Shown here in pieces: positions 44,811 to 46,213 of a DNA stretch of 64,000 nucleotides (position 1 is the stretch's first letter; every line of letters starts with the position of its first letter). This DNA is from Euzebyales bacterium (lineage in GTDB: Bacteria; Actinomycetota; Nitriliruptoria; Euzebyales; JAHELV01): assembly GCA_036374135.1 (NCBI GenBank), contig DASUUK010000024.1, positions 81,305 through 145,304 of the forward strand. The letters run 5' to 3'. The notes under the pieces were generated by a model that was given only the letters and a program-made list of their open reading frames with translations, ran no database searches and had not been told where the DNA came from. The translations under genes were made by a program, and so were the position numbers.

Positions 44811-45338
44811 ATGATGACGATGCCCGGACAGCTGTCGACCGATCGGCTCCTGCTGCGCCAGTTCCGGGAGGGCGACCTGGATGCCTTCGCCGCGATCCAG
44901 GCCGACCCCGGCGCGGCACGTCACATCGGAGATGGCCGGACCAACGACCGCGCCACGTCGTGGCGGCTGATCGCGATGTTCCTGGGACATTGGACCCTGC
45001 GCGGGCACGGCCAGTACGCGGTCGAGGACCGTGGCACCGGCGGGTTCCTCGGCCGGGTCGGCCTGTGGTACCCGGAGGGCTGGCCGGAGCTCGAGATCGG
45101 ATGGCTGATCGGGTCCGCGTCATGGGGCCGGGGGTACGCGACGGAGGCGGCGCGCGCCGTTGCAGCCGCCGCCTTCTCGGAGCTGGGCAGTGAACGCCTG
45201 ATCAGTCTGATCCGTCCGGCCAACGCCGCGTCGATCCGGGTGGCGATCAAGCTCGGCGCGGTGCGCACCGGGATCACCGAGCTCGACGGCGAGCGCACCG
45301 ATGTCTACACCTTGACGCCGGACGCGCTGACCGCCTGA
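44811..45338 (+). CDS. GNAT-family N-acetyltransferase (RimJ/RimL-like)
   Basis: 175 residues. LSTDRLLLRQFREGDLDAFAAI is the usual RimJ-type start, and EIGWLIGSASWGRGYATEAARAV carries the acetyl-CoA loop (GRGYATEA). LISLIRPANAASIRVAIKLGAVRTG is the C-terminal substrate-binding strand and helix. GGAGG lies 9 bases before the ATG. It is divergent from lysS. The target of acetylation cannot be told. Confidence 0.9.
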   Translation: MMTMPGQLSTDRLLLRQFREGDLDAFAAIQADPGAARHIGDGRTNDRATSWRLIAMFLGHWTLRGHGQYAVEDRGTGGFLGRVGLWYPEGWPELEIGWLIGSASWGRGYATEAARAVAAAAFSELGSERLISLIRPANAASIRVAIKLGAVRTGITELDGERTDVYTLTPDALTA

Positions 45339-45519
45339 CGCGACTGTCGGGGGGCTCGTCGGGCCGCGCCGATACGGGTGTCCGGACGCGCGGACGCGCC
45401 GAGGCGCCGCTGTTTGGGAGTGGGGGCGGCGGACGCGCGGACCCACGGGGTGTCCGTACGCGCGGACACGCCCCGCTGGTGGCGGGTACGCGTCCGCGCG
45501 GGCTGGCGCGTGCGACCTG

Positions 45520-45548
45520 CATGAATCGAACATACATTCGCATTCATG
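45520..45548. promoter_or_regulatory. imperfect palindrome containing a LexA-box-like core
   Basis: CATGAATCGAA pairs with TTCG-C-ATTCATG across a 6-base loop, with one bulged base. The centre, CGAACATACATTCG at 45527-45540, differs by one base from the actinobacterial and Bacillus LexA consensus CGAAC-N4-GTTCG. It is a likely operator; LexA itself is only a suggestion. Confidence 0.5.
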
Positions 45549-45587
45549 TGGAACACAAGTGCATCCCCATGCCTGTGGACATTGTTC

Positions 45588-45610
45588 GATGTCTGTGCAT
45601 GCACGACATC
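45588..45610. promoter_or_regulatory. 23-base palindrome GATGTC...GACATC
   Basis: GATGTC, one unpaired T, the perfect 10-base palindrome GTGCATGCAC, and GACATC make an almost complete inverted repeat about 200 bases before the OsmC start. It lies 40 bases after the first palindrome, in the same AT-richer patch. Confidence 0.55.
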
Positions 45611-45805
45611 ATCCGAGGGAACACATGGGATGGCACAGCGTAGACATGCCGGCGCGGTCACCCGCCCGAAACGTCGCTCCGAGCGAGCACCGACAGGCAC
45701 TCCCAGCCTCGACTGGAGGTTCTCCGACAGTCGAGGACCGACATCACGACCGCGCGGGACGATGCAGGGTACGGCGCGATCGACGACAGCGAGGAGGAGC
45801 AGGAC

Positions 45806-46213
45806 GTGACAACGATGAACGTATGGGTGCGCTCACTCGACGGGCACGTGTCGATCGGTCGTCAGGAGGAGGATCAGGTGCTGCCGCTGGACCGACCGGA
45901 GGCGACCGGCGGTACAGGGCTGGGCTTCAACGGCGGCCACCTGATGCTGCTCGGGTGGGGTGGCTGCTTCAAGAGCACGCTGATCGCCGCGGCCGAGGCG
46001 CGGGGCATCGACATCCGCGACCTCGAGCTGACCATCGCCGGTGAGACCGCCGACACGCCGTACCGCATCAAGAAGGTGCGGATGTCGGTCGAGCTCGACG
46101 CCGAGGTCGACGATGACACGAAGCGCAAGCTGATCGACATCGCACGCAACGGCTGTGCGGTGTCGAACACGCTGCAGCTGGGTGCCGAGATGGAGATCTC
46201 CCTGGACGATTGA
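45806..46213 (+). CDS. OsmC-family protein
   Basis: 135 residues. The family reduces organic hydroperoxides with two cysteines, or acts as a thiol-related protein in stress. Here GGHLMLLGWGGCFKSTLIAAAEARGI holds the first Cys and CAVSNTLQLGAEMEISL the second; SVELDAEVDDDTKRKLIDIA lies between. The GTG at 45806 has GAGGAGGAG upstream. The upstream palindromic patch suggests regulated expression. The closest known type (OsmC or YhfA/SACOL-like) is unclear. Confidence 0.9.
   Translation: MTTMNVWVRSLDGHVSIGRQEEDQVLPLDRPEATGGTGLGFNGGHLMLLGWGGCFKSTLIAAAEARGIDIRDLELTIAGETADTPYRIKKVRMSVELDAEVDDDTKRKLIDIARNGCAVSNTLQLGAEMEISLDD

Follow-up and report, generated by a model that had tools for sequence, protein, structure and literature searches.

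An AT-rich patch upstream of osmC in a Euzebyales bacterium as the probable orphaned promoter of a lost DUF222/HNH-type gene

The window (the whole stretch of 64,000 nucleotides analyzed) carries a GNAT acetyltransferase gene (44811-45338, plus strand) and an osmC gene (45806-46213, plus strand), both identified with Pfam. The spacer separating them consists of a GC-rich left part followed by an AT-richer patch (45515-45650), the position and sequence of which had been given correctly in an earlier note on this DNA. The GC content of the patch is 50.7%, as against 71.2% across the window, and is the lowest among 6387 overlapping 136-bp windows (1 of the 6387 at or below this value), which bears out the note's remark that the patch has a lower GC content than its surroundings. 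It also contains no known gene: three scanned open reading frames which cross it (45546-45809 and 45559-46044 on the plus strand and 45305-45700 on the minus strand) were assigned to no Pfam family. Both of the inverted repeats described were recovered: the first (45520-45548, or from 45519) has 11 pairs, one bulged base and a 6-base loop, and the second (45588-45610) has 9 pairs, one bulged base and a 4-base loop. The window as a whole has 9 hairpins with 11 pairs or more, so that such hairpins are no rarity in it (five local shuffles gave 2-9). The first palindrome is unusual given the composition of the patch, an equally good hairpin occurring in 9 of 1000 patch shuffles, and the second is marginal, since 56 of 1000 shuffles contain one or more hairpins with 9 pairs or longer. 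The core of the first palindrome is a LexA-like box, CGAACATACATTCG, and its outer arms are absent from the cognate promoters with which it was aligned; the second shows no conservation in congeners, one of its arms being partly common to another copy in the same genome (C15, see below). The AT-rich patch and its palindromes are a real feature, correctly seen at first reading.

The LexA-like box (45527-45540) shows one mismatch to CGAAC-N4-GTTCG, as the earlier note had claimed, and two mismatches over the 16 bases TCGAAC-N4-GTTCGA. A search of 31 genomes for the exact 14-mer gave 7 places, spread over 4 of them, while the reversed control gave none, and elsewhere than in the window it stands before DUF222 or dnaE2 genes. 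In the congener G001, all three places directly precede DUF222 genes, two of which were assigned to this family by Pfam, while the third (C16), cut by the end of the contig, has a start 81% identical to that of L054; a search of relatives with the spacer found a piece of it at C16, directly before a leftward open frame. The pattern CATNNATCGAACATACATTCG was found in 41 stretches of public genomes, in 23 of which an open frame starts in the box. These 23 were submitted to Pfam as alignment A1 and 10 others singly, the remaining eight (L055, L060, L065, L067, L072, L080, L089, and L091) being left out of this test. Twelve of the 23 frames match DUF222 (10 of the 23 are shorter than 90 aa, cut by the end of the fetched DNA), and the 10 single loci include one DUF222 gene and three DnaE2-type polymerase genes, fractions which are not base rates because the pattern requires an ATG after the box. 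When the upstream DNA of part of the DUF222 Pfam matches in the window's order was fetched (93 stretches, 89 of which were long enough), a LexA-like box was present within 1 kb of 22 of the 89, and the control pattern in none of them. The window's own genome, G000, carries 7 sites of the form TCGAAYNNNNRTTCGA (reversed control 0), one before dnaE2 and others before dienelactone hydrolase, glyoxalase-like, and HNH_3 genes; the window box is not among them because of its last base. Another of these sites precedes what we take, from the start of the protein, to be an ImuA/ImuB-like pair, for which Pfam gave nothing. Together, these comparisons support the assignment of the site as a putative LexA-type box of the same kind as those found before dnaE2 and DUF222 genes.

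The similarity to DUF222 promoters extends beyond the box. An nhmmer profile built from four congener DUF222 promoters matches the window at 45590-45515 (E 2.1e-9), finds three held-out DUF222 promoters (L152, L153, and L154), and matches the osmC spacer of the congener G002 (E 1.8e-7); the boxes of other SOS genes match it over the box only. A model made from seven promoters (R1) matches 45583-45513 with 36.7 bits (whole-genome E 9.6e-9), the best match in the genome. Searched against four whole genomes of the genus, R1 gave 10 full-length matches with E below 1e-6, seven of which precede DUF222 genes (four of four in G001, one cut by the contig end, and three of three in G003) and one of which (G002 C153) precedes a DUF222 start fragment. 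The two matches without a DUF222 gene behind them are those in the osmC spacers of G000 and G002. Only the matches at G003 C45, in the window, and at G002 C158 are independent, because the other seven of the ten served to train the model. At G003 C45 (42052, L221), a DUF222 gene missed by the Pfam scan and held out of R1 was found via its promoter, and tblastn bore it out (47% over 496 aa, E 1.2e-119), so the model can be used to take a census of DUF222 genes and their relics. Short tandem repeats were noticed in the DNA upstream of this gene.

Read in gene order, the DUF222 promoters of the genus consist of TTRTCCACAGATA, a -35 TTGACT, a -10 TATGTT located inside the LexA-like box, and the ATG. 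The corresponding stretch of the window (45513-45590, minus strand, as delimited by the profile and R1) is directed leftward, away from osmC. The same -10 hexamer occurs in it at 45529-45534, and the box overlaps this hexamer and adjoins the start codon, ATGs being present on the minus strand at 45522 and 45537. The -35 seems to have decayed: TTGTGT (45553-45558) stands where two intact cognates have TTGACT, at 18 nt from the -10 instead of 17, and no recognizable -35 was found at 16-18 nt. A sigma-70 promoter scan of 45300-45830 gave no match in either direction, rightward included, and neither did that of the corresponding G002 stretch, whereas the intact cognates L011 and L054 pass the scan as TTGACT-17-TATGTT. 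The homology and this anatomy identify the patch, with good confidence, as a former minus-strand promoter of a DUF222/HNH (13E12-type) gene, presumably once under SOS control. On this reading, the low GC content is simply that of a promoter set in a genome of 71% GC, and the strong palindrome would be a LexA-type operator to which an outer arm has been added by chance.

Upstream of the putative -35 lies a DnaA-box-like site, ATGTCCACA (45574-45582, minus strand), the window copy of which has one mismatch in the alignments. Among the 12 copies of the genus (the window, C15, two in G002, four in G001, and four in G003), TTRTCCACA is exact in eight, has one mismatch in three, and lacks a base in one, as judged by eye. 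In most of the DUF222 promoters of the genus, the site precedes the LexA box by about 40-42 nt, and the loci where it accompanies the box are the window, L011, L054, L096, L152-L154, L221, and L231. In the 64 kb of the window, no more than 6 such sites occur when one mismatch is allowed, and none of the 6 is exact. Of 18 other SOS boxes in the genus, 5 also have a DnaA-like site no more than 100 nt away, including that of an HNH_3 gene in L141. At L116 and L122 (near 1501), an SOS box and a DnaA-like site were seen before a gene whose start is helix-turn-helix-like, clearly so in L122, and which adjoins what is presumably a tRNA gene. With at most one mismatch allowed, the motif was found in 3 of 11 order-level promoters with a box (shuffle mean 0.41, maximum 3) and in 6 of 24 GTDB promoters (shuffle mean 0.56, maximum 3), which is thin support outside the genus, because three of the six GTDB matches (L054, L074, and L086) come from G001 contigs and the G001 gene of L086 recurs among the 11 as L034. 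The idea that the motif might be a general feature of DUF222 genes was dropped in view of these counts, several of which come from G001 itself. The recurrence of the site beside LexA boxes is nevertheless a lead which can be tested.

What the window promoter lacks is a gene. Neither Pfam nor tblastn, the latter up to E 1, detected a DUF222 gene in G000, and two DUF222 proteins searched against the DNA adjoining the patch found nothing there. The putative remnant of the gene start (45520-45537, minus strand) has two in-frame ATGs and reads MYVRFMQ; MYVR.M is invariant in the 23 in-frame open reading frames at this box, an invariance due largely to the search pattern, in which those bases are fixed. 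After about 7 codons, the minus frame runs into a GC-rich hairpin repeat and ends at 45274, antisense to the GNAT gene, the whole open frame from the old start (45543-45274) amounting to 89 Arg/Pro-rich amino acids. As no DUF222 gene follows, the window copy is called a relic here and not a member of the family. G000 consists of 115 contigs and is 96% complete, so a DUF222 gene located elsewhere could be missing from the assembly.

The hairpin repeat standing in place of the gene body (45434-45514, its start also being given as 45374) has three clear copies in G000: that of the window, one at C15 beside a piece of the promoter, and one alone at C45. The coordinates of the other two copies are 2170-2240 in L009 and 1900-1965 in L010, and one copy lies between a gene which we take from its protein to be sulfatase-like and a presumably ABC-transporter-like gene facing it. 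The repeat pattern was not found in three congeners, including G002. The hairpin and the promoter piece follow each other in the window as they do at C15 (about 148 nt aligned at 74%, E 4.6e-17), the LexA box being lost from the C15 promoter; because blastn with the window finds C15 and the promoter profile does not, C15 is counted as a partial copy only. As regards a possible insertion at C15, the search of one congener locus (L234) was limited to three exact words and found none of them.

The same orphan promoter occurs in G002 between the same two genes, GNAT and osmC, as a stretch of 69 bases lying before osmC (C158; L096 1381-1313). Its box has undergone one further change, its start codon is gone, and the GNAT gene is broken as well, while the OsmC proteins of the two genomes are 85% identical. 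In this comparison of related spacers, the promoter stretch is present at the same site according to the profile, and the rest of the spacer does not align significantly. A free local alignment of the whole osmC spacers of G000 and G002 scored 61, the maximum in 300 shuffles being 66, so that the homology of the spacers rests on the profile. No osmC match was found in G003, and no intact DUF222 gene was found at the osmC spacer in congeners, the G001 contig beginning 154 bp before osmC, so that loss of the gene in place can only be inferred. At G003 C10, a weak R1 match (14.6 bits) accompanies a DUF222 gene of which the start and the HNH end are kept and the middle is gone, and we propose that this copy is an intermediate of the decay. 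G002 also carries an internal DUF222 fragment without a promoter (C8 12647-12940, L155) and, at C153 (L145), the DUF222 promoter with the start fragment mentioned above.

The patch is homologous to the DUF222 promoters of the genus, the gene is absent, and the same orphan occupies the syntenic site of one congener. The explanation we favor is that the patch is probably the orphaned, decaying promoter of a lost leftward DUF222/HNH (13E12-type) endonuclease gene. Where congeners have an intact copy, LexA bound to the box, which overlaps the -10, would keep the near-leaderless nuclease gene starting a few bases further on repressed until DNA damage relieved the block; this scheme is drawn from the anatomy of the promoters and from what is known about the 13E12 genes of mycobacteria, and LexA binding at the window box and past SOS control of the promoter would follow from it. 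In G000, the gene body would have been lost, the hairpin repeat now following the approximately 7 remaining codons, and the -35 and its distance from the -10 would have drifted. The fact that both orphans fail the sigma-70 scan while two intact cognates pass it favors a dead or dying relic, and the promoter may well be non-functional at present. What counts against a relic is that the 14-base box has stayed the same in spite of the drift of the -35, as would also be expected if the operator were under selection, and that the orphan has been kept in two species, though the rest of the spacer aligns no better than chance.

These observations would suit a kept LexA operator, to which LexA binds, driving or blocking a short leftward transcript (the frame 45543-45274) or an RNA antisense to GNAT. 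The box core and the -10 are indeed intact, an 89-aa frame continues from the old start, and the orphan is found in two species. The degraded -35, the 18-nt spacing and the failed sigma-70 scan, the loss of the box at C15, the further changed box and missing start codon in G002, and the overlapping minus-strand frame 45305-45700, in another frame and without any Pfam match, nevertheless make this reading rather unlikely. A broader version, that the DUF222/HNH promoters of the genus are composite DnaA-box/LexA-box switches and that the osmC copy outlived its gene as a kept composite operator, is more doubtful still; a literature search found nothing on such composite promoters of DUF222/HNH genes. 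If it were true, a selfish or repair nuclease would be coupled to the initiation of replication as well as to DNA damage, and the kept operator might serve, for example, as a decoy or give rise to a leaderless small protein or an antisense RNA induced by damage.

Control of osmC, the gene to the right, by an oxidative or DNA-damage operator, which the earlier note had put forward, would account for the presence of the patch in the osmC upstream spacer of both G000 and G002. The LexA-type half of that proposal is supported by the boxes before dnaE2 and DUF222 genes, but the link with osmC is not supported: the signals point away from osmC, no rightward promoter was matched, about 265 bp separate the end of the box from the osmC start, and elsewhere the same promoter belongs to DUF222 genes, all of which makes such control improbable. 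It is very unlikely that the patch is part of a small mobile repeat in which hairpin and promoter piece move as a unit, as their shared order in the window and C15 might suggest, since G000 has only two such copies, the third hairpin copy (C45) has no promoter piece, target duplications or end repeats were not established, and the promoter half occurs at the syntenic G002 site, where the hairpin pattern was not found. The foreign DNA scar suggested earlier finds no support in the sense of a phage or plasmid remnant, the phage and plasmid collections having given no match to 45440-45650 (E limit 0.01); a looser version survives, in which the patch is what remains of a nuclease gene belonging to a repeat family. 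The least probable reading of all is a structured RNA, also suggested earlier, or a riboswitch, since, despite the two hairpins, the first of which alone folds better than shuffles (z -3.2, plus strand), no Rfam family was matched, the 151-nt fold of the whole patch does not stand out from those of shuffles (z -0.80 and -0.13), and cognates lack the outer hairpin arms.

The relic promoter accounts in a simple way for a GC dip and a palindrome which could otherwise be mistaken for a regulator of osmC, and suggests that the promoters of 13E12-type nuclease genes can outlast the genes themselves and mark their former sites. LexA control of 13E12 genes is already known, the primary work on those of Mycobacterium tuberculosis reportedly being that by Davis et al. 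in 2002.

As in the M. tuberculosis 13E12 (DUF222/HNH) family, a LexA-type box lies directly before the gene start, and the exact variant present in the window is found ahead of DUF222 genes in mycobacteria as well as in other actinobacteria; unlike those of that family, the window promoter has no gene behind it. In two papers, the M. tuberculosis 13E12 genes are placed in the LexA regulon (PMC5005354, PMC4181829), and a third lists five putative HNH endonucleases in the RecA-dependent set (PMC8151990). The actinobacterial LexA box is given for Streptomyces venezuelae as tCGAAC-N4-GNNCGa (PMC9380542). The window box resembles it in the half-site TCGAAC and the 4-base spacing and differs from it in the second half-site, ATTCG, which has A for G, and in the last base, C for A. 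With regard to DnaA, TTGTCCACA is given as the actinobacterial box and as the high-affinity box of M. tuberculosis and S. coelicolor, and TTATCCACA as that of E. coli (PMC4285127). Similar to these, TTRTCCACA is carried by most of the DUF222 promoters of the genus, and by the window with one mismatch, at a place which is not a known origin; the exact form at 40-43 nt is missing in 22 of the 24 GTDB promoters, which sets the promoters of the genus apart. The orphan state and the composite site are, compared with these known systems, of modest interest.
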